Positions 11,496 through 29,744 of a stretch of 30,119 nt of DNA are shown here, in pieces. Under the pieces are notes generated by a model, which searched no databases, was not told the origin of the DNA, and worked only from the letters and a program-made list of their open reading frames with translations. Made by a program: the position numbers and the translations under genes. This DNA comes from a virus, in IMG/VR virus record IMGVR_UViG_3300029319_000316, positions 1 to 30,119 of that record; one strand, given 5' to 3'. Numbering within the stretch: the first letter of the stretch is position 1; every line of letters starts with the position of its first letter.

Positions 11496-13214
11496 CTACG
11501 CAGTAGCGCCGGCCTCACCGAGAAGTCCTCGACAAATCACAAGACCGTACATGTCCGGGCGAACCATTTTCTTGGCGTACCGGGTCATGACACCCTTGCG
11601 AGGCACGAAGTCCTCAACACCAAAGATGGTAGGAGTCACCTGAAGTGGAACGTATGGAGCATAAACGTAGCCAGACTCAAGGAATCCAGAACCCTTACGA
11701 CCAACGAGGACCACATTACGGATGAAGTAAGGATCAACGTACACGTCGAACTTACGGCTCAAGGAGCCGACCTTAACAGCACCGATCTGGCCACGATCAT
11801 CGTCAGCGGTGACGGATGCGCGGAAACCAGCAGTGAACTCAAGGATGTTTGCAACTTCAGGGCCACAGACCACGAAGTTTGCACCGCCACGGAGCGTCTT
11901 GCGGTGAATCTGAGCGGACACATCATTGATGGTCTCAATCAGAGTCTCATACCACTCAGACACAGTACCGGTGAAATCAGGAGCAGCAGAAGATGCGCCG
12001 ATTTCAGCACCAGTGGTGCGCGCAAGGAACATACCAGGGCTGCGAGACCAGTAGAAAGTACCAGCGGTTGCACCCTTGACAAGATCTTCCATGATTTCAC
12101 GATCGATTTCGAGAGCGATCTGCTCGGAAAGAATTCCGGTCAACTCAACCTCGGCGTCGATGTTGTGATAAGCACTCAAGTCTTGGCCAAGTTCTGGCGT
12201 CCACTTTGCTTTCAACTTCTTGGTCATCGCCGTAACTGCCACAGAGTCAACCTTGATGTTGATCTCAGGAATCAGTTCGCTGTTCTCAAGACCCCAAGTA
12301 GTGGTTCCGCGAACGGCACCAGTTGCACCACCAGCCTCAAAGTTGTCCTTGATGGCCATGGAGGCTTCGGCGATACGATCGACAGACTCACTCAAACGAG
12401 CAGCCGTTTCCGTACCAGAAGCGTTAACAATGATAAGGAACTTAGTGCTATCCGTAGGATCGATTCGCGTAAGGCGACGAACCTGACGACCAGCATCAAC
12501 AGTCGTTGCCGTAATCGTGATGAAATCATCCTCATTGAACTGACCAGCAGTAGCGCCAGAAAGTTCGACACTACCAACAGCGTACATAGAACCAGAAGAA
12601 AGATCTGGATCGAACTGAAGCAGACGTGGGAGGTTGTAACCGGTAACGTTCGCATCAAAGGTAGGAACACCACCTTCCTGAACCTCACCCTGTGCAACAA
12701 CGGTCGTCACAACAGTGAAAGAACCGGTTGGGGAAGCATAGCCATTGTTGAGGGCGTAGAAACTGTCTTCTGCGCTATCACCACTGAGGCTAACACCACC
12801 AGTCAACTGGCTAGCCAGCACTCCGCCACCGTAAAGTGACTCACCGGCTTCAGCACCTAAACGAGCACTCTCATAAGAGAAGTCCAAGAAGAAGATGAGT
12901 CCACTTGGAAGGCTCATTGGCTGAACGCTAACAAGATCGTTAGCGATAAGTCCGCCGAAAACACGACGAACGATTGGGAATGCGACGGCAGCAAAGCCTT
13001 CAACATCACCAGGGGCTGTGCCACCCATTGTGGATGCTTCCTTAAGAAGTTGGGCAGCCTGATTTTCAAGTAAGCGAGCCATGTTGTGCTGGGCGCGCTC
13101 ATTATCGATACCCTCAAGAAGTCCGGTGGACTGCCACTTGTTCAAAAGTGCGGCTCCCTCTTTCTCAAGGTCACGACTTACAATGCCTTCTGTGAGGCGT
13201 TCTAAAACTGACAT
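11496..13214 (-). CDS. 23: Major capsid protein (T4 gp23-like), 572 aa
   Basis: Similar in length and layout to T4 gp23 (521 aa). The N-terminal ~60 residues are helical and removable: the segment LLEN...QLLKEAST contains L-K-E59|A60, matching the (L/I)-x-E cut rule of the gp21 protease, at nearly the same place as T4 gp23 (after residue 65). The mature start is followed by FAAVAFPIVRRVFGGLIANDLVSVQPM, the best conserved gp23 block, and FFLDFSYESARLG. Late features include IHRKTLRGGANFVVCGPEVANIL and DMYGLVICRGLLGE at the C-terminus. It forms the icosahedral shell around the scaffold. ATG 13212-13214 follows GGGAGA; scaffold lies 25 bases upstream, strong terminator downstream. Confidence 0.95.
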   Translation of the reverse strand: MSVLERLTEGIVSRDLEKEGAALLNKWQSTGLLEGIDNERAQHNMARLLENQAAQLLKEASTMGGTAPGDVEGFAAVAFPIVRRVFGGLIANDLVSVQPMSLPSGLIFFLDFSYESARLGAEAGESLYGGGVLASQLTGGVSLSGDSAEDSFYALNNGYASPTGSFTVVTTVVAQGEVQEGGVPTFDANVTGYNLPRLLQFDPDLSSGSMYAVGSVELSGATAGQFNEDDFITITATTVDAGRQVRRLTRIDPTDSTKFLIIVNASGTETAARLSESVDRIAEASMAIKDNFEAGGATGAVRGTTTWGLENSELIPEINIKVDSVAVTAMTKKLKAKWTPELGQDLSAYHNIDAEVELTGILSEQIALEIDREIMEDLVKGATAGTFYWSRSPGMFLARTTGAEIGASSAAPDFTGTVSEWYETLIETINDVSAQIHRKTLRGGANFVVCGPEVANILEFTAGFRASVTADDDRGQIGAVKVGSLSRKFDVYVDPYFIRNVVLVGRKGSGFLESGYVYAPYVPLQVTPTIFGVEDFVPRKGVMTRYAKKMVRPDMYGLVICRGLLGEAGATA

Positions 13215-19493: not shown

Positions 19494-19924
19494 TAGAACA
19501 ATCCTTTGTAATTTAATCCACCAATTAAAGATGAGATGTCAACACCCGGATCACCCGGATCAATGCCCGATAATGGACTGGCGGTGGCACCGCCTTGCGA
19601 TTGCTGCGGTGCCTTGCGCATTGGCTTGGTCCCCTCAAATAAATTAACACCATTGTAAGCGTCCTTATTAATGGCTCCCAGCATTCTCTTTCTGGCTTCT
19701 GCTAATTTATTCTTACGCTCTTTAAGTCTCAGTTCATCCTGCTGGGGTTGCTGTTTGACTGTCCTGGGTAATCTCTTCTCTTCTCTTTCAACGAGAGGAG
19801 CAGCACCCATTCCTTGAACAACTTCAGAAATAATATTAGAAAGGATGCCCTCTTCGAAGATAACTTCCTTGATGCACTCCTTAATTAACGGTTTTAATAC
19901 TGTTTTCAACTCACTCTTTTTCAT
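19493..19924 (-). CDS. Small protein with leader-type N-terminus, possible prohead core protein
   Basis: A 143-aa protein opening MKKSELKTVLKPLIKECIKE, a basic amphipathic helix related to the LKQIIKE leaders at the right end of the window, with I-K-E sites that fit the gp21-type cut rule. The middle is charged (ELRLKERKNKLAEARKRMLG) and the C-terminus is Gly/Pro/Ser-rich (GIDPGDPGVDISSLIGG). It is coupled to the protease before it (TAATG overlap) and bS21 after it. The position next to the protease is that of small core proteins in T4-like phages (gp67/gp68), so an internal head role is reasonable. Function otherwise unknown. Confidence 0.75.
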   Translation of the reverse strand: MKKSELKTVLKPLIKECIKEVIFEEGILSNIISEVVQGMGAAPLVEREEKRLPRTVKQQPQQDELRLKERKNKLAEARKRMLGAINKDAYNGVNLFEGTKPMRKAPQQSQGGATASPLSGIDPGDPGVDISSLIGGLNYKGLF

Positions 19925-20538
19925 TAATCACCTAAAATACTTTTAATTAAATTATCAACTTTATCATCGGATCGAACAGATTCACGAATTCCGATATTCA
20001 TGTTCTTACTCTGGCCTTGTGGGTATACAAAGGCATTCGGTGTTGATGGTTCTGAGACAATATCAAAACAAATCAATTGGAAATCCTCTTGTACCACCGT
20101 ACCCTGCATCGTTTCCTGAACAGAGCCAAGACCTCTAGAGGAAATGCCAAGTTTGACACCGGCGTTCAATAAATCTTTCAAAATGCGCCCTGACGGAGTG
20201 TCGAGTACCTTGATTTTTCCCATGACATCGTTACCTTCGAACCAAATATCAACCATCATGTGGGACACGTTCTTAAGGTTAACAACGCTGTCATCGGGAT
20301 GATCGAGTTCGCCACAAGCACGATTATCATCGATAACCTTCTTGTAGTTGTCAACTTCTCGATTCAACACCTTCTTCGGATACATTCTGCCGTTTCCATT
20401 TTTAGTATCAGCAGCCTGTATGCGTCCGGTAAGATAAACGGCTCCATTGGTCATCTCTTTCTTTTCCGTTTCGGACAAGAGATCACGACAATAGCCGTCA
20501 GGACATAGAGCAAAATATTCTTGTAATAATTTTTTCAT
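19924..20538 (-). CDS. 21: Prohead core protease (T4 gp21-like)
   Basis: A 204-aa protein, close to T4 gp21 (212 aa). The catalytic blocks are plain: GELDHP around His80 (T4: GELNHP), GISSRGLGS around Ser133/134 (T4: GVSSRGLGS), and the FDIVSEPSTPNAFV segment at about 158-171 (T4: DAVWGPSAPDAWV). Also conserved are NGNGRMYPKKVL and DIWFEGNDVMGKIKV. It is the serine protease, of herpesvirus-assemblin type, that digests the scaffold and trims capsid and internal proteins after (L/I)-x-E. The N-terminal ~30 residues include LLSE and may be self-cut. ATG 20536-20538 has AGGA 7 bases upstream; a terminator-like hairpin lies just before. Confidence 0.93.
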   Translation of the reverse strand: MKKLLQEYFALCPDGYCRDLLSETEKKEMTNGAVYLTGRIQAADTKNGNGRMYPKKVLNREVDNYKKVIDDNRACGELDHPDDSVVNLKNVSHMMVDIWFEGNDVMGKIKVLDTPSGRILKDLLNAGVKLGISSRGLGSVQETMQGTVVQEDFQLICFDIVSEPSTPNAFVYPQGQSKNMNIGIRESVRSDDKVDNLIKSILGD

Positions 20539-20638: not shown

Positions 20639-20953
20639 TTATTCCTCCGTGTGAATGTTGATTCCATAATCACCAAAAAGCATGCTCAGGACGTAAGAAG
20701 TACCAGAAGAGATACAGCCACAAATAAGAGCATTTATTGGGTGATAATCAAAAGTAAATAGTTCTGTCCAACCATTAATGCTGAACAGGAACAATCCGAC
20801 CCAAAAGCCGAGACACATTGGGCAGTGAAAGACTTCGGCCAGACCTCTAAATCTATACTTTTCTGGTCTCACTCCATCGAAGATCTTTCCGTAGACAAGT
20901 ATTTGGGTGAGACCGAAGGCGCAGAGCACAAAGTAGATAAGATCAACCATCAT
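20639..20953 (-). CDS. DUF1360-like small membrane protein
   Basis: A 104-aa protein with three hydrophobic segments (about residues 3-21, 46-60 and 74-93) and the motif FHCPMCLGFWVGL, the C-x-x-C-x-G-F-W-x-G signature of DUF1360-type membrane proteins found in phages and Bacillus. Function of the family is not established. The start ATG overlaps the preceding stop (ATGA), so it is coupled to the leader-bearing 208-aa gene. A membrane protein amid head-assembly genes is odd; it might anchor prohead assembly at the membrane or act in lysis control, both inference. Confidence 0.75.
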   Translation of the reverse strand: MMVDLIYFVLCAFGLTQILVYGKIFDGVRPEKYRFRGLAEVFHCPMCLGFWVGLFLFSINGWTELFTFDYHPINALICGCISSGTSYVLSMLFGDYGINIHTEE

Positions 20954-21576
20954 CTCTCCGTCTTAATGGATGTAAAACTAGAATCTGCATATGATGAGTT
21001 AGTATTCATCCAATCAACCAAGTGGTCCGTCAAATCAGGGATCTTTGTCTCGGGCGGATTGTTTGCAAAGAATTTCTTTATTTGATCAACAATATCGCTT
21101 TCCTGAAAGTATTCTCTTTGGAATTTGTCGTCAATCATATCTAGAGTCTCAGGATCGACGCAGAATGCAGTCAAAAATTGCCTTGCGGCAGGGGCTTCTG
21201 CGTATTTTTCCTCATTTCTATTTGCGTTCACGAAGATCTTTCCGAACACTTCGCCCGTTTCGGCAGCCAAGTCTTTATACCCAACAGCAGCGCCGGCTGC
21301 TGCGGCTGCGCCGCCTGTTGCCAAGGTAGTTGCTGCTGTAAATCCTAATTTTGCCATTGCTTTTGCAACGGGCATAGCCTTGCGGACATTCTTTTTCCAT
21401 TGTGGCTCTTTCGCTAATTTCTCAATCTTTTCTCTTCTCTTTTCTTCATCATCAATTACCGTCGCAATATCGGTTGCAACTATCATATCGCCAATTGTGA
21501 ATGGAGTATTGCAAGCCTCAAATTGCTCGCTAACAAAGCCTTTCCAGTTTTCCATTATTAGTTTCATATCTGACAT
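20950..21576 (-). CDS. Internal head protein candidate with T4-type capsid-targeting leader
   Basis: A 208-aa protein. The N-terminus MSDMKLIMENWKGFVSEQ nearly repeats that of the metallopeptidase-like protein at 28.9 kb (MKLILENWRGFVNEAEL) and resembles the T4 internal-protein leader MKTYxEFIxE, which targets proteins into the prohead and is cut after Glu by gp21. Downstream are a basic helix (KNVRKAMPVAKAMAKLGF), a Gly/Ala hydrophobic stretch (ATTLATGGAAAAAGAAVG, about residues 81-98) that could insert in a membrane, and a charged C-terminus. It may be packaged and ejected with the DNA. Start at ATG 21574-21576 has GGAA upstream; the ATG three codons later lacks a site. Confidence 0.75.
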   Translation of the reverse strand: MSDMKLIMENWKGFVSEQFEACNTPFTIGDMIVATDIATVIDDEEKRREKIEKLAKEPQWKKNVRKAMPVAKAMAKLGFTAATTLATGGAAAAAGAAVGYKDLAAETGEVFGKIFVNANRNEEKYAEAPAARQFLTAFCVDPETLDMIDDKFQREYFQESDIVDQIKKFFANNPPETKIPDLTDHLVDWMNTNSSYADSSFTSIKTER

Positions 21577-22127: not shown

Positions 22128-22921
22128 TATTCAAGTTCCTTAATTAATTGCTGACCCTTCAGGATCATCTGCAAATCAGAGTCAGAAAATTGCTTGGTTT
22201 TCAAAACACTAAACTTACTCAATACACCTTTAAGTTCTGGATTTGAGTCTAACTTTTCTGACAAAATTGTCTTAATTCTGCCCACTTCTTCATTCAAGAA
22301 ATACCGAAACTCGACGCCGTTATCATTAAATGACGTGATATATTTCGTAAGTAGAGTCTTTTGTTCGTCCAAGAGTTCATTATCATATTTTTCATTAAAC
22401 TTCTTAACATATGTCTTATAGGTCAAGGCATCCAAATGTTGAAACCTTTCTTCTTGTTTTGCCTCGGATGGAGAGATAAGAGAAGTGACAAGTTTTCTTT
22501 CCAAAATGACCCGAGTCTTGGCATCCGTTTTTTTATTAAAAACGTGCGAGATATTGGCGTAAGTTTTATAATTTGGAGTAAAAACAGAAAAGAAATCTTT
22601 TCCAAGTTCCATATTAATTTTCTTAATCATAGAACTTTGAGTGCTGAAAATTTCTTCTAAGTTCAGTTCATTATAGTCTTTTCTGGATTCGTAAATAAAT
22701 CTTTCAGCCAATGGGATGTCTAGACCGCGAGTTTCCATAATAGAATTGTAAAGATCGACTTCTTTTCGTAAAATTGATCCATCATGAAAATACTCTCTCA
22801 AGATAGCGATGGTCTTTGCTTTACGATCATTATCTTTTTTGACAATACTCTCAGTAAGACATCGAGTAAGTGCCTCATAAACAAAGGCAGAATTACGCTT
22901 CTTATTGTGCTTTAGTTTCAT
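22127..22921 (-). CDS. Helical protein after the portal, possible prohead core protein
   Basis: A 264-aa, highly charged helical protein opening MKLKHNKKRNSAFVYEALTR. I choose ATG 22919-22921, which overlaps the portal end by 20 bases and has GGAG about 10 bases before; a longer reading frame would run far into the portal gene in another frame without a ribosome site. It contains many K/E-rich helices and ends GQQLIKELE. Genes at this place between gp20 and gp21 in T4-like phages encode prohead core proteins, so that role is likely but not shown by any motif. Confidence 0.75.
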   Translation of the reverse strand: MKLKHNKKRNSAFVYEALTRCLTESIVKKDNDRKAKTIAILREYFHDGSILRKEVDLYNSIMETRGLDIPLAERFIYESRKDYNELNLEEIFSTQSSMIKKINMELGKDFFSVFTPNYKTYANISHVFNKKTDAKTRVILERKLVTSLISPSEAKQEERFQHLDALTYKTYVKKFNEKYDNELLDEQKTLLTKYITSFNDNGVEFRYFLNEEVGRIKTILSEKLDSNPELKGVLSKFSVLKTKQFSDSDLQMILKGQQLIKELE

Positions 22922-24863
22922 TTTTCTTAACTCCAGTATTGAGGCTTTCAAGCAAACTATGAACTTCTTGACTAGTTTTAAATAGTTTTCGTTCCTCAGT
23001 AAGATCCATTTTTTGAGCGCCCTCGCCAAGAGCGGCAAGACCTAAGTCCTTGGTAAGTTCACTAGTAGCCATGCCCGGGAAGACATTTCTGGTTCCGGAA
23101 CGTGTCTTTTCACGACTTGCGGCGGCATGCATTTGCTTATTTGTTTTGCGGCCTCGACCATAGGTGGAAGTGCGCTTGTCGCGTTTCACAGGGATGTATT
23201 TTCCACCCTTCTCGTAAGTGCGTACCTCTGGATCCCGACGGTTTCCGGGTGGCTCTGCTAAAAGAACACCAGCGTCGTCTTCACCTGCCGGCTCTTCGGC
23301 GGCTGGCTCGTCAAGACCAAGATCGTCGCCTCCGAGATCCTCATCACCTCCTCCGAGATCCTCATCACCGCCTCCAAGTAGATCATCTCCACCTCCAAGA
23401 TCTCCGCCTTCAGCCTCTTCGCCTTCGGCAGCGGCGGCAAGTCGGGCATCAAGTTTGCGATCAAAATACATCTCGCGCTGGTTTCTAAGAATTTCCTCGT
23501 CAGACATATCAAACATGTGCTTGTATACCCAGCGACGGCTGAAAAAGCCCTCTGTGGCCGAACCTGCTGCATCGAATTTACTTTTCCAATGCTCAAGTTC
23601 TTGCAATTCGGCAATTTTACTCGGATTATTAAGGGTAAGATCAAAAGAGAGCAGATCATCTCCACGAAAGCCGAGAACATAAAGATGAACAATTCCAATC
23701 TTTTCAAGTTCAGACAGGCCGGAGCGCTGAAGACGCTGAATGGTTCTAGCGAAACGAACATCTTTCTGGGCTAATGTTGTCTTGTCCTCGTCAGCACCTT
23801 CGCCTCGGGACAAGTATGATTGTGGCACCTTGATAGCGGCGAACAATTTGTCCTGAAGATACTTCACATCATCAATATCGCCCGTGAAAGCACCACCGGG
23901 AAGGTTCTCGACACGAGAAGACTGTCCTGCTCGAAGAGGAATGAAAATGTCCTCTTCCACGCTCATTGGATTGTAGCGTAGATCAACACGTCCAGTGTCC
24001 TTGTCAATAACTTGGTTGCGCTTCATCTGAGTCACAACCTTTTGCATATACTGCTCAACGTCCTGTGGTGGGATATTCCCAACATCAACATAAAAAACTT
24101 TTCTTTCTGGTGAGCGAACGATACGATAGGCCATCATGGCGTCTTCCATAAGGGTCAATTGACGCCAGATACGCCGAGCAGGTTCCAAAACAGAAGTCCC
24201 GTATGGAGCAAACTTATCATTACCCAGCACACGAAAATGTGCGATTTGCCAATTCTCAAAAGTCATTCCTCCGGAGTTCCACTGAAATTGAAAATAATTT
24301 GGATTTGTTTTATCCTCGCCTTCAAGACGTTCAATTTCATTTGACGGCAATCCAATCGCGGATTGAATTCCCATCTTTTCATCAATATCTAAGTATAAGA
24401 AAAAATCTCCATATTTGCACATCGTCCTAAACCAACCAAAAAGGTTTGAGTCGATATTAAGAATATTGTGATACAGATCATCTAAAATTAATTTGATTTC
24501 TTCATTTGGGCACCTAATTGACAACATTGGACTAATGGGAGAACTAGTTGTCATCTCATCGGCATAAATATCCAAAGCAGATGCGATTTCAGGCATATAT
24601 TCCATTTGTTGAAAATCTACATACCTTTCAGAGCGGTTGTGGTTTGCAATTGCATTCGCCGCCAAAATATCAAATGGATTATATCCAGCCTTTTTAAATT
24701 GTCTACCACTAGCAGACTCAAATGCGCTGGCATATTTATCCAGATGAATTCGCCTTAACTGTCTTTCGTGCTGTGCGCGGCGATTGACAATCGGACCTGA
24801 GAACAATCTTGTAAGCGTTTTATATAATCTAGATTGCGGGTTTCTATTATTTTTTGAAGCCAT
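22902..24863 (-). CDS. 20: Portal protein (T4 gp20-like), 653 aa
   Basis: Portal core features are clear: YMPEIASALDIYADEMT near residue 90, LMEDAMMAYRIVRSPERKVF and YVDVGNIPP around 235-265, LPGGAFTGDIDDVKYLQDKL, and SYLSRGEGADEDKTTLAQKD around 345-365. Portals form the dodecameric gate for DNA entry and the base for head assembly. At 653 aa it exceeds T4 gp20 (524 aa); the extra is C-terminal, where residues ~490-545 are Gly/Asp/Glu repeats followed by a basic tail (KYIPVKRDKRTSTYGRGRKT). ATG 24861-24863 follows AAGGA at the end of the terminase gene, so translation is coupled. Confidence 0.93.
   Translation of the reverse strand: MASKNNRNPQSRLYKTLTRLFSGPIVNRRAQHERQLRRIHLDKYASAFESASGRQFKKAGYNPFDILAANAIANHNRSERYVDFQQMEYMPEIASALDIYADEMTTSSPISPMLSIRCPNEEIKLILDDLYHNILNIDSNLFGWFRTMCKYGDFFLYLDIDEKMGIQSAIGLPSNEIERLEGEDKTNPNYFQFQWNSGGMTFENWQIAHFRVLGNDKFAPYGTSVLEPARRIWRQLTLMEDAMMAYRIVRSPERKVFYVDVGNIPPQDVEQYMQKVVTQMKRNQVIDKDTGRVDLRYNPMSVEEDIFIPLRAGQSSRVENLPGGAFTGDIDDVKYLQDKLFAAIKVPQSYLSRGEGADEDKTTLAQKDVRFARTIQRLQRSGLSELEKIGIVHLYVLGFRGDDLLSFDLTLNNPSKIAELQELEHWKSKFDAAGSATEGFFSRRWVYKHMFDMSDEEILRNQREMYFDRKLDARLAAAAEGEEAEGGDLGGGDDLLGGGDEDLGGGDEDLGGDDLGLDEPAAEEPAGEDDAGVLLAEPPGNRRDPEVRTYEKGGKYIPVKRDKRTSTYGRGRKTNKQMHAAASREKTRSGTRNVFPGMATSELTKDLGLAALGEGAQKMDLTEERKLFKTSQEVHSLLESLNTGVKKNETKAQ
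23331..23393. repeat. 21-bp tandem repeat in the portal C-terminus
   Basis: Two near-perfect 21-base units (23331-23351 and 23352-23372, one difference) and a degenerate third (23373-23393) encode repeated GGGDEDL-type heptapeptides. Copy number could change in frame. Confidence 0.85.
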
Positions 24864-24865
24864 TT

Positions 24866-26443
24866 TTATCCTTTAAGAAGCCAAATAAAATCTTGATAAT
24901 CTTTTTTTGTTTGTTCATCTTCAAATTCTTTTTTATAGCCAGTCATTCCGGGAATTGCTGTGTTCATAAAAGAATCTGTTCTGTAAATTGAACTAATTGA
25001 AGATTTAGCATACTCTACTTGTTTCTTGTCCTCCTCCAAAGCAGTGTCTCTTACCCAACAACAAATAGCCAGTGCCATAACCAAGTCATCATTGTATGAG
25101 CGCATCGCTTGTGGTTTGCCATTTGCCCAGATAAATGTCTTTAATTCGTTGACTAATCGCGTAGAATACACCTTAATTAGTTTATTTCGGATGTACTCTT
25201 CCAATTTTGCTATGATAAGCGGTCGAGTCTTGGAAGTTGTTGAAAAACCGGGCACAGCATTTGGCAAATTCTGCGCCATGTGGTGCTCAACATAGTCGTG
25301 AGTTCCTTTCATAGAGTAGTACAAGTTATTATAACCTAAATCACTCAACTTTTCAAGTACAGAAATGCCAATTCCTACATTTTCTACTACTAAAAGCGCT
25401 TTTCCGTATTCATTCCCAACTTGGTAAAGGAAATTCGCATACATGTCAAGCGTAGGTTTGCCCTGATATTCTGCGACAACTTCCAATGTTTGTAATTTTA
25501 GGACATGAAAGACGGAACTATCAGCACCATCGCCTCTGGCGACATCAGCAACAACTATGTATGTAAATTCATCACTGTAGTTTTCCCAGATCCAGTAATT
25601 CCTATCAAATCCAGTACGATATTCAGGCGATTTACACTCGTTCAACAGTCTTCCCAAGTCTTCTGGGTCTATAACAGTGTCTCCGGACGTATTAAAGTTA
25701 CATTCGTACTCTTGGGCGATCTCTCGCCTCGACATGTTCTTCGTTTCCTTCTCGAACCAAGCCTGATCGCGCTCTGGGTGTACATCCCAGGGCAAAAGTG
25801 TCGGATGAAACTCGTTTGAGCCGTCCTCGGCGCCAACATACGTCTTATGGAACCAGTTTCCGACACCGCTTGGCGAAGAAAGGGCGATACAGCGTCCACC
25901 GGTCGAGATTGTGGGGTAGATTGCCTTCCAAAGTTCGCCCAGAGTCTCAATATGGGCTGCCTCGTCGATAACCAGCAGGGAAAGTGCCTCAGAACGACCA
26001 GCATCGCCGCTCGTTGAGGATGCCTTGATCTGGGAACCGTTGGTCAACTGGAATGAGGTGCGGTTGTCAATCTCAATGTCCGCAATTTGGAGCCACGGAG
26101 GCAGTTTCTTGACAATTGCCTTCACCTTTTTGACCAAGTTGGTCGCTGTGGCGAGTTTTGTTGCCAAAATGAGCACGTTCTTGTCGCGGTGGAACATCAT
26201 CATCCACGCAACATAGCCCGAAACAATCGTCGAGATTCCCAATTGGCGCGCTTTTAGGATAATGTTATAACGATAATCGACAAAGTCGTCTAAAAGGTCG
26301 TCTTGATAATCATAAGTGTTAAAAGCGATCAAACCATGCACGGGATGAGAGATCTTAGCATAGTTTTTTAAAAAGTAAGACGGGCTTTTGCCGCATTTTA
26401 CTATTTCCTTGAGAATGTCTTTCTTGGAAAGTTCATATTTCAA
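24866..26443 (-). CDS. 17: Terminase large subunit (T4 gp17-like)
   Basis: A 525-aa packaging motor. The ATPase shows a deviant Walker A (K64-ARQLGIST; T4 has SRQLGKTT), Walker B LLVIDEAAH with D160/E161, and a coupling motif ALSSPSG at 187-193. The C-terminal RNase H-like nuclease has D300 (VVADVARGDG), E354 (LVVENVGIG) and D452/453 (YNDDLVMAL). It is shorter than T4 gp17 (610 aa) but no core motif is missing. It cuts concatemeric DNA and pumps it through the portal encoded just downstream. Start ATG 26441-26443 overlaps the preceding stop (ATGA). Confidence 0.95.
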   Translation of the reverse strand: MKYELSKKDILKEIVKCGKSPSYFLKNYAKISHPVHGLIAFNTYDYQDDLLDDFVDYRYNIILKARQLGISTIVSGYVAWMMMFHRDKNVLILATKLATATNLVKKVKAIVKKLPPWLQIADIEIDNRTSFQLTNGSQIKASSTSGDAGRSEALSLLVIDEAAHIETLGELWKAIYPTISTGGRCIALSSPSGVGNWFHKTYVGAEDGSNEFHPTLLPWDVHPERDQAWFEKETKNMSRREIAQEYECNFNTSGDTVIDPEDLGRLLNECKSPEYRTGFDRNYWIWENYSDEFTYIVVADVARGDGADSSVFHVLKLQTLEVVAEYQGKPTLDMYANFLYQVGNEYGKALLVVENVGIGISVLEKLSDLGYNNLYYSMKGTHDYVEHHMAQNLPNAVPGFSTTSKTRPLIIAKLEEYIRNKLIKVYSTRLVNELKTFIWANGKPQAMRSYNDDLVMALAICCWVRDTALEEDKKQVEYAKSSISSIYRTDSFMNTAIPGMTGYKKEFEDEQTKKDYQDFIWLLKG

Positions 26444-27446: not shown

Positions 27447-27829
27447 TATTCGTCCTCTTTATTTGGTCGCCACCCGTCTTTCCATCTCTGTTCTCTTCCT
27501 TCTACGTGCTTTACATAGCAAGCATGACAGCACTCGAATTTTTGAACATATACTTCATCACGAAGTGACAAATGATATTTGCGACAAACGCCGCACACAA
27601 TATTATTCTTCTTAATTAGTTTTTTACTGACATAAATGCCATTAACCAATTCTTTCTCGTTGTCCTCTTGATGAGAGAACTCCCTTTCGAAGACTTTTTT
27701 GGCTTGAACCTCGTATTCTTCTTCGCTTTCCTCGGTCCAATTACCCTTCGGATTTTGAATCGCTTCGGTGCCATACTTCTTGGCAATCTCTTTTTCTAGT
27801 CCGGCGACAAAAGTTAAATCTCGTTTCAT
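27446..27829 (-). CDS. Zinc-ribbon-like small protein, unknown function
   Basis: A 127-aa charged protein. Two cysteine pairs, CGVC near residue 79 and CCHAC near residue 100, spaced about 20 apart, fit a zinc ribbon. The N-terminus is helical and acidic. It is tied to both neighbours by 4-base (ATGA) and 2-base-type (TAATG) overlaps. Such proteins can bind nucleic acid or partners; nothing specific can be claimed. Confidence 0.7.
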   Translation of the reverse strand: MKRDLTFVAGLEKEIAKKYGTEAIQNPKGNWTEESEEEYEVQAKKVFEREFSHQEDNEKELVNGIYVSKKLIKKNNIVCGVCRKYHLSLRDEVYVQKFECCHACYVKHVEGREQRWKDGWRPNKEDE

Positions 27830-28953
27830 TTTGCCATCTTTTTCAATCTAAGTTCTAAATTTTTAACTAAATCTCCGGCAAACTCTTTTGGTCTAAGTTT
27901 CTTTAGTGTTTTGATTGCCTTAACGTAGTCCGGCATATTGGAATCTTTTGCAAACTGTTCTAAGTCTTTATCGCTTCGAAACATTAAAGATACCACCTGT
28001 GTTGCCAAAGTATTGAAAGAGGGCATTTTTTTATAAGTCTTGACAACATCTGCCGGCTTCTTCTTCATTATTTTTGCTAATTGAATTATATTTTTCCTTT
28101 TTTGTATATTATCCTGTTCTTGCAATATATTAGGATTTTGCTCCTTATAGTTGATCATACTTAATTGAGCCGGTGAGATTTTTCCAGTGCTCATTAACCA
28201 TCTGACTAAATCATCCAATATGTCACTCATCCACGTTTCATATTCAAAATCATCCCCTAAATATCTTTTCACTCTTTCATCGTCACCAATTCCCTGCTCG
28301 CGGGCTGCCTTTTGAGTAACTTGTCGTAAGCCTGTTTTTTGTTTCCCTGTACCAAAATCTTTTTTAAAGTTAAGATTAATTTGTTGTATTTGTGATGTAT
28401 CTCCATTTGCTTTAAATAAATCTTCACCATATTTCAAAGCATATGTATTTAATCGTTGAGTGAGATGCTGCAATTCATGCCTAATAGTGCTTCTTAATTG
28501 ATCCCAACTTCGATGCTCCCAAGGATTTAGCGCTAAAAATAAGCCTTGTCCTTTGTCGAAAGTGCCCATCCTCCCCATACTATCCATTTCTCTGTCTATT
28601 ACCAAAGTAATTTTCAAAGGTCTCTCTAAGAAGGGCTTTAATATCTCCTCTTTAAGTCCAGATTTAGGATCCCAATTATCTTTCATAAAACGCATGCCGT
28701 TTTGCCATGGCATGCCGGAATCTCCATGGATCATATAAAATAGAGCCGCACCATTTTTAATTTTTATCTTATCACTATAAAATATTTCATGTCCCGGGAC
28801 ATCTAATTCTTTTTTGAGATAATAATCCCTCTTTTCTTTGCCTTCTTCATAAGCATCCGATGCTATATTATAGATTGTATTAAACAGAGTCTCTGAATAT
28901 TTAAGTTCTGCTTCATTGACAAATCCACGCCAATTTTCAAGTATAAGTTTCAT
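27826..28953 (-). CDS. Metallopeptidase-like protein with capsid-targeting leader
   Basis: A 375-aa protein. I place the start at ATG 28951-28953 because it overlaps the preceding TGA (ATGA); an upstream in-frame start would add 25 residues and lie inside that gene. The N-terminus MKLILENWRGFVNEAEL matches the leader of the 208-aa protein and resembles T4 internal-protein leaders (MKTYxEFIxE). Residues 159-163 are H-E-L-Q-H in the helix STIRHELQHLTQRLN, the HExxH zinc-peptidase motif; Glu236 or Glu238 (DDFEYETWMSDILDD) could be the third ligand. The rest is mixed, with a Lys-rich C-terminus. I infer a zinc peptidase packed in the head, trimmed by the gp21-like protease and ejected into the host, or a head-maturation enzyme. 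Confidence 0.75.
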   Translation of the reverse strand: MKLILENWRGFVNEAELKYSETLFNTIYNIASDAYEEGKEKRDYYLKKELDVPGHEIFYSDKIKIKNGAALFYMIHGDSGMPWQNGMRFMKDNWDPKSGLKEEILKPFLERPLKITLVIDREMDSMGRMGTFDKGQGLFLALNPWEHRSWDQLRSTIRHELQHLTQRLNTYALKYGEDLFKANGDTSQIQQINLNFKKDFGTGKQKTGLRQVTQKAAREQGIGDDERVKRYLGDDFEYETWMSDILDDLVRWLMSTGKISPAQLSMINYKEQNPNILQEQDNIQKRKNIIQLAKIMKKKPADVVKTYKKMPSFNTLATQVVSLMFRSDKDLEQFAKDSNMPDYVKAIKTLKKLRPKEFAGDLVKNLELRLKKMAK

Positions 28954-29372
28954 TTTGAAATTTCGGTTGCTGCGTAAAAGATGGCAATAGATGTTGCTAT
29001 CCCAGTAACCATTCCTCCTGCGAACCACAAATTGGTATTTGGTTTTTTTGCTGTGTTCTGTATATAAGTATCTAACTCATCCTGTGTTTCTGTCAAGAGA
29101 AAATTTAATTTTTCTTGCTCTGCCGTCGCTTGAATGTCGGCAAGTCTTATCTGGAGATCGTATTCAGCGCGGATTCTGCTAATTTCAAACTCGGTTCGCA
29201 AATCGCACTCTGTCATCGCAAATTGCTTCTCGACGATCAGTTCAGCGGTTGCGGTTTCGTTAAACAAGTAACCAGCGAACGGTGCTTGTTCGCCGGCTTC
29301 TAGTTGTGTATACTGGGCATCTTGCGCTAGCGCAGAGGATAAGAGCAGTAGTCCAATCACACTTGATGTCAA
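28950..29372 (-). CDS. Signal-peptide/coiled-coil membrane protein (spanin-like?)
   Basis: A 140-aa protein starting at TTG 29370-29372, with AGAGG 6 bases upstream; no in-frame ATG is available before an upstream stop. Residues 2-16 (TSSVIGLLLLSSALAQ) look like a signal peptide with likely cleavage after ALA. Then come QAPFAGYLFNETA, a long charged helix (about 45-100) and a C-terminal transmembrane segment (NLWFAGGMVTGIATSIAIFY). The topology would span the envelope with a periplasmic helix, as in spanins, but no spanin family is recognised and no holin or endolysin lies beside it. Confidence 0.65.
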   Translation of the reverse strand: MTSSVIGLLLLSSALAQDAQYTQLEAGEQAPFAGYLFNETATAELIVEKQFAMTECDLRTEFEISRIRAEYDLQIRLADIQATAEQEKLNFLLTETQDELDTYIQNTAKKPNTNLWFAGGMVTGIATSIAIFYAATEISK

Positions 29373-29393: not shown

Positions 29394-29744
29394 TTATTCG
29401 TTTCTTAAGATTCGAAGAACATATTCTCCTATTCTTGCCTCTTTGCCCGGGCCATACTTTTCATCGAATGGCATAGTTCTGTGTGCTTGAACCAAAGCGT
29501 TGGTTAAAGTTTCACCAACCTCTTCAGCGGTTAGTTCCATGGCGGCACCAAGGGCAGACTCTAATTCCTCTAAGGGAATTGAATAAAAATCTGCTGCGTT
29601 CTTAAGGGCTTCCCTCTTCATCACTTCATCACCACCGCCTCCAAAGGATTCAGGTGGGACGTTTGATGCGGGATCCCACTCTCCCTGAAAGTCCCTGATG
29701 CTTTCCTTAATAATCTGCTTAAGTTTTGTTTTTGTTAGTTTCAT
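29394..29744 (-). CDS. Small protein with LKQIIKE leader
   Basis: A 116-aa protein. ATG 29742-29744 with a perfect AGGAGG 9 bases upstream is chosen over a start 29 codons earlier inside the previous gene. The N-terminus MKLTKTKLKQIIKESI repeats that of its upstream neighbour (MKISKGRLKQIIQEEM) and contains I-K-E, a possible gp21-type cut site. A Gly-rich linker (PPESFGGGGDE) and an acidic helical domain follow. Function unknown; likely an internal or processed virion protein. Confidence 0.75.
   Translation of the reverse strand: MKLTKTKLKQIIKESIRDFQGEWDPASNVPPESFGGGGDEVMKREALKNAADFYSIPLEELESALGAAMELTAEEVGETLTNALVQAHRTMPFDEKYGPGKEARIGEYVLRILRNE

Follow-up and report, generated by a model that had tools for sequence, protein, structure and literature searches.

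Phage T4 packs a handful of proteins into its head by means of a short leader and ejects them. Its internal proteins IPI, IPII, and IPIII carry the capsid-targeting sequence (CTS) MKTYQEFIAE|A, the bar marking the cut by the S77 serine protease gp21; IPII and IPIII begin with MKTYQEFIAEA, and the site in the major capsid protein gp23 is FLTE|A. The first 10 residues of IPIII are reported to be enough for packaging, foreign proteins bearing this tag are packaged and delivered, and the CTS has been proposed as a means by which T4-like phages might package a variety of proteins (PMC9026906; PMC3012670). The N terminus of gp21 itself holds a site, LIE-9, that fits the cleavage rule, and the ADP-ribosyltransferase Alt is among the proteins that T4 packages (PMC9026906). 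In the phiKZ-type phage SPN3US, many ejection proteins are likewise packed in the head and several are cut by a prohead protease (PMC7411985, PMC10052503); that phage belongs to another group, whereas the common short leader considered here is one of T4-like phages.

A leader-bearing peptidase-like protein among head genes

The window analyzed here, 30,119 nucleotides in length, is a 30-kb viral fragment of marine T4-like type that encodes on its minus strand (27826-28953) a 375-amino-acid (aa) HExxH peptidase-like protein composed of a leader, a core, and a C-terminal domain. Translation confirmed the two features singled out by the initial annotation, the N terminus MKLILENWRGFVNEAEL and an HELQH motif at residues 159 to 163 (28465-28479, minus strand), the latter in a predicted zinc-binding helix. 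The leader occupies residues 1 to 14 (MKLILENWRGFVNE; 28912-28953, minus strand), with a predicted cut at E14|A. Both ends of the gene form ATGA-type overlaps, the start codon with the end of the gene before it (28950-28953) and the stop codon with the next start (27826-27829), and the gene belongs to a tightly packed run that reaches genes assigned by content and order as gp17, gp20, gp21, and gp23.

The genes named next all lie on the minus strand. Downstream of the peptidase gene come a gp17-like large terminase (24866-26443) and a gp20-like portal (22902-24863), both assigned by content and gene order rather than by profile. A second leader-bearing protein (MKLIMENWKGFVSE; 20953-21567) occupies the place that gp67/gp68 have in T4 and is followed directly by a gp21-type S77 prohead protease (19924-20538; PF03420, E = 7.7e-32; phrog_207, E = 6.3e-60), the predicted leader cutter. 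The major capsid protein (11496-13214) has a putative LLKE|A maturation site by comparison with FLTE|A of T4 gp23. On the other side, a short protein with a signal-like N terminus and a hydrophobic C-terminal stretch (28950-29372, minus strand) ends in overlap with the peptidase gene start; Pfam and PHROG profile searches returned no family match for it.

A shared N-terminal leader and its predicted protease site

We collected leader loci with a degenerate DNA scan of IMG/VR (ATG followed by KLxxE[NS]W), which gave at least about 120 loci among the matches listed, all of them in metagenomic fragments. The motif KL[IL]xE[NS]W-R-x-[FY]-[LIV]-x-E is represented by at least 162 distinct leaders, and the remainders of the proteins fall into at least 97 BLAST clusters (about 97 among the matches listed), a figure that overstates the number of true superfamilies and includes some loci from near-identical phages. 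Among the matches listed, we counted 168 occurrences of the strict motif in about 120 loci; 160 directly follow Met, and the other 8 are also at or adjoining the N terminus or a contig edge. When the pattern was applied without ATG to 23 whole records, chosen for holding the leader and hence informative on position and strand rather than on frequency among phages, it matched in all of them (3 to 10 times in most large records), always on a single strand per record, with no matches for the reversed pattern. In four records of 181 to 203 kb, all strict matches but one are N-terminal, the exception being an orphan leader that ends at a stop codon. The leader is an N-terminal module common to about a hundred unrelated protein clusters. 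We found no cultured representative of these phages, no relevant match to the leader peptide among cultured phages (a weak search with a 20-aa query), and no relevant match in open-access text, although it may have been described elsewhere.

The end of the leader resembles a gp21-type [LI]xE| site. Hydrophobic-x-Glu follows at fixed spacing in 114 of the 162 leaders among the matches listed, compared to about 4 expected from composition, and this part of the leader, after the Trp, lies outside the search pattern. In the window the leader ends in VNE|A, with Val rather than Leu or Ile at P3, so that GFVNE|A aligns with EFIAE|A of T4; two homologues (L001 and L327) have LNE|A. The major capsid proteins of leader-bearing phages carry LL[KR]E|[ANST] at the position of FLTE|A in gp23. 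Each of the seven leader-bearing records larger than 120 kb encodes exactly one S77 protease, and at many loci the leader-bearing gene adjoins the S77 gene, either between portal and protease or just after the protease. No S77 gene was found in the fragments that hold L327, L242, L369, and L370; searches of the L370, L242, and L327 records for S77, terminase, and major capsid protein were all empty, which by itself is uninformative. Judged by its residues, the leader end is the predicted site of the phages' own S77 protease. Glu14 is the favored cut in the 375-aa protein; cleavage at Glu6 is also conceivable, as ILE|N agrees with the gp21 rule as well. We set aside an additional cut at LQE279|Q, since L327 does not keep that site.

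In overall design the leader matches the T4 CTS: it is short, N-terminal, and terminated by hydrophobic-x-Glu|Ala/Gly, it is shared by otherwise unrelated proteins, and it occurs in S77-encoding phages. It differs in its LxxENW core, in its length (13 to 14 residues rather than 10), and in its presence on about 100 protein clusters, and one of its DNA versions has apparently spread nearly unaltered from gene to gene. The N terminus of T4 gp21 (MNEPQLLIETWG; L175:43448-44086) is similar to the leader core KLLIENW/KLLIENWR, a resemblance that might go back to a common ancestral function in core binding. Family profiles run against open reading frames (ORFs) of at least 150 aa, including those of T4 at 60 to 110 kb, gave no T4 match; IPI and IPII fall below that size limit. 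As a side observation, the leader-bearing HExxH protein L263 (466 aa) has a leader-like sequence, KRLFDNWRNYLKED, near its C terminus as well.

At the DNA level, leader copies inside single genomes are highly identical between the start codon and about position +39, and identity falls to background or close to it on either flank, except in L034, where some similarity persists upstream. One 21-nt version, AAACTCCTACTTGAAAATTGG, with unusual Leu codons, accounts for 11 of 25 KLLLENW family/DNA combinations, compared to 0.02 expected from codon use. In a search with this 21-mer alone, ATG, GTG, or TTG preceded 158 of 159 copies, and the proteins behind them formed 62 to 63 clusters. Because a single form recurs across families, it has apparently been copied between genes. 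The same recurrence could be read as the mark of a different kind of N-terminal device, for example one for starting translation or for sorting proteins to some other assembly, and the existence of short orphan leader ORFs and of an SD-like 4-mer, present upstream of only 68 of the 159 copies, could be taken in the same direction. Such a device is an unlikely explanation for the leader: KLIMENW is encoded by 27 synonymous DNA forms, which points to protein-level selection on the peptide, an S77 site stands at fixed spacing in genes that adjoin S77, and the short orphans are consistent with decay. A T4-type capsid-targeting role for the leader, as the initial annotation had proposed for this one protein, is well supported by these sequence comparisons and extends more broadly than was claimed. 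Orphan leader peptides (e.g., MKLLLENWRGL followed by a stop at L086:3537-3572, and others in L359, L366, L269, L301, and L320) are sometimes followed directly by the start of a new gene and could reflect either decay or a translation device.

Conserved residues and predicted fold of the HExxH family

A direct search with the 375-aa protein found one relative, L001, at 56% identity, and profile searches added L327, L242, L369, and L370 to give a six-member family. HExxH, Q166, E237, and D244 are kept in all homologues, at 56%, about 40%, and about 25 to 30% identity, and the alignment has 19 invariant columns, including Glu14, H159, E160, H163, Q166, Y231, L232, E237, and D244. It had been asked whether homologues keep both the leader and HExxH: Glu14 and HExxH are present in all six, and residue 15, directly after the leader Glu, is Ala or Gly in each. 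L242, L369, and L370 are the most distant three; their ENW core has diverged, their N-terminal alignments contain small gaps, and their start positions are less secure. The L370 homologue (L370:5629-7284) has a different N terminus (MKKIKLLHILFEGEV) and a long C-terminal extension; it comes from a 123-kb record in which no S77, gp17-like, or gp23-like genes were found.

The residues near which a third zinc ligand was proposed earlier, Glu236/Glu238, are to be renumbered Glu237/Glu239. Within residues 237 to 244 (EYETWMSD; 28222-28245, minus strand), E237 and D244 are kept in 6/6 homologues and E239 is replaced by Lys in L369 and by Thr in L370. Since E239 is not kept, E237 is the better candidate and, on conservation, most likely the third ligand. 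The C-terminal domain (residues 277 to 375; 27829-28125, minus strand) shows the highest conservation among close homologues and has no match in the families searched. The complete protein has no match above cutoff among Pfam, PHROG, and NCBIfam profiles and no match of note in a PDB sequence search, and we found no relatives in annotated phage records or in bacterial or archaeal genomes.

HExxH recurs behind the leader. Six distinct leader-bearing proteins of the first set contain it, compared to 0.62 expected from composition; one of these, L026, is a Nudix protein and probably not a peptidase. Several leader-bearing proteins combine HE[LM]xHxxQ with a downstream ExxA-like motif, E-[IVY]-[DEK]-[AGT]. 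Profile comparisons of the 375-aa family with the other leader-bearing HExxH proteins, and with a widespread leader-less HELVHH peptidase, were not significant. Both the leader and HELQH in the 375-aa protein exceed chance. A leader-less HELVHHAQ protein at L001:6537-7406 is itself a likely metallopeptidase with more than 150 relatives in IMG/VR.

AlphaFold2 (AF2) models were of low confidence, both with two sequences (pLDDT, 52.7) and for the core with six (pLDDT, 54.3; pTM, 0.50); other leader-bearing HExxH proteins were part of the six-sequence alignment. In each model, strands come before a long helix that holds HELQH. Foldseek returned nothing significant for the AF2 models, and VIA-align against the PDB gave 13 weak rows (Z, 2.2 to 3.1), none significant, several of them zincins; those at Z of 2.5 to 3.1 include SprT-like, IrrE, MATCAP, and HtpX zincins and are too weak to count. 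The modeled order of elements and the invariant downstream Glu are as in zincins (gluzincin-like, SprT, IrrE, HtpX), whereas there is no detectable sequence relation to them, the C-terminal domain is unmatched in the families searched, and the zincin fold is unconfirmed. It is conceivable, in view of the missing match to a known peptidase family and the low-confidence models, that HELQH arose by chance or is vestigial and that the packaged protein has a structural or inhibitory role with no peptidase activity. We consider this rather unlikely, given that HExxH, Q166, E237, and D244 are among only 19 columns invariant in six members down to about 25% identity, that an HExxH helix preceded by strands, as predicted here, is in keeping with a zincin, and that other leader proteins carry HExxHxxQ with a downstream ExxA-like motif. 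The earlier assignment as a zinc peptidase is supported by the residues, through invariant HExxH and E237, whereas the fold models are of low confidence (pLDDT, 53 to 54); the 375-aa protein is a putative zinc peptidase.

Putative cargo, occurrence, and proposed role

Pfam domains found behind the leader include Nudix, zeta-toxin/AAA kinase, protein kinase, GNAT, GDSL lipase, M23 peptidase, EF-hand, and HAD. A second set of leader proteins contains ADP-ribosyltransferase (3/62), protein kinase, GNAT, poly(A) polymerase, transglutaminase-like, and other domains. This cargo (ADP-ribosyltransferase, kinase, GNAT, Nudix) resembles sets of delivered effectors. T4 Alt offers a parallel as a head-carried enzyme ejected into the host for early use, and ADP-ribosyltransferase domains also stand behind the present leader; the 375-aa protein is instead peptidase-like.

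The HExxH family is rare, with six contigs across IMG/VR scans and the sequence gathered, and searches of four near-complete genomes encoding other leader proteins and S77 did not find it. This combination makes a general role in head maturation unlikely. The initial annotation had left injection and head maturation as alternatives; of these, general maturation fares poorly on occurrence, and an accessory, delivered role fits better. An extra maturation protease, working inside the prohead beside the serine protease rather than against the host, would suit a gene that precedes the terminase gene within the operon for head and packaging functions, and the strongly conserved C-terminal domain of close homologues could then meet a partner inside the head. 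We nevertheless regard this role as improbable for a family so sparsely distributed, when S77 itself occurs in all leader-bearing records above 120 kb, and when the L001 and L327 copies lie among other leader-bearing enzyme genes: a kinase and HAD in L001, and Nudix-like, polynucleotide-kinase-like (by reading of the sequence), and other genes in L327.

The 375-aa protein is probably an accessory cargo, loaded by its leader, cut after Glu14, and ejected as a zinc peptidase against the host. In this proposal, the 14-residue N terminus would act as a capsid-targeting sequence that binds the scaffolding core during prohead formation, and the gp21-type serine protease would cut after Glu14, leaving the mature protein free inside the head from Ala15. 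The mature protein would be a zinc-dependent peptidase (H159, E160, H163, and most likely E237). Most likely it would leave the head along with the DNA and cleave a host protein soon after infection begins, one member of a group of delivered enzymes with a common leader. We infer packaging, cutting, zinc binding, ejection, and a host target for this protein, with delivery and target argued by analogy to T4 Alt and IPI.

We lean slightly toward a wider interpretation as well, in which uncultured T4-like phages tag many enzyme genes for head packaging through a short mobile DNA cassette (a start codon and about 13 codons). The head would then be an open-ended effector delivery device in which zinc peptidases recur beside kinases and ADP-ribosyltransferases. 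If the leader does what the T4 leader does, it provides a far larger readable list of infection-time proteins in uncultured T4-like phages, including putative peptidases, kinases, and ADP-ribosyltransferases; cargo would be predictable from 14 residues, and a search for the tag would yield candidate host-takeover or counter-defense enzymes. Compared to the known T4 CTS, what stands out here is the unusually broad predicted enzyme cargo, with a predicted zinc-peptidase member.

A second N-terminal tag, MK[IL]TKxxLKQIIKE, occurs on small proteins in the window (29394-29741, minus strand) and in L100, L080, L093, and L161, among others. All 23 distinct matches are at the start codon (22 after Met and 1 after Val, perhaps a GTG start), and the tag may represent another class of leader, with IxE at its end.
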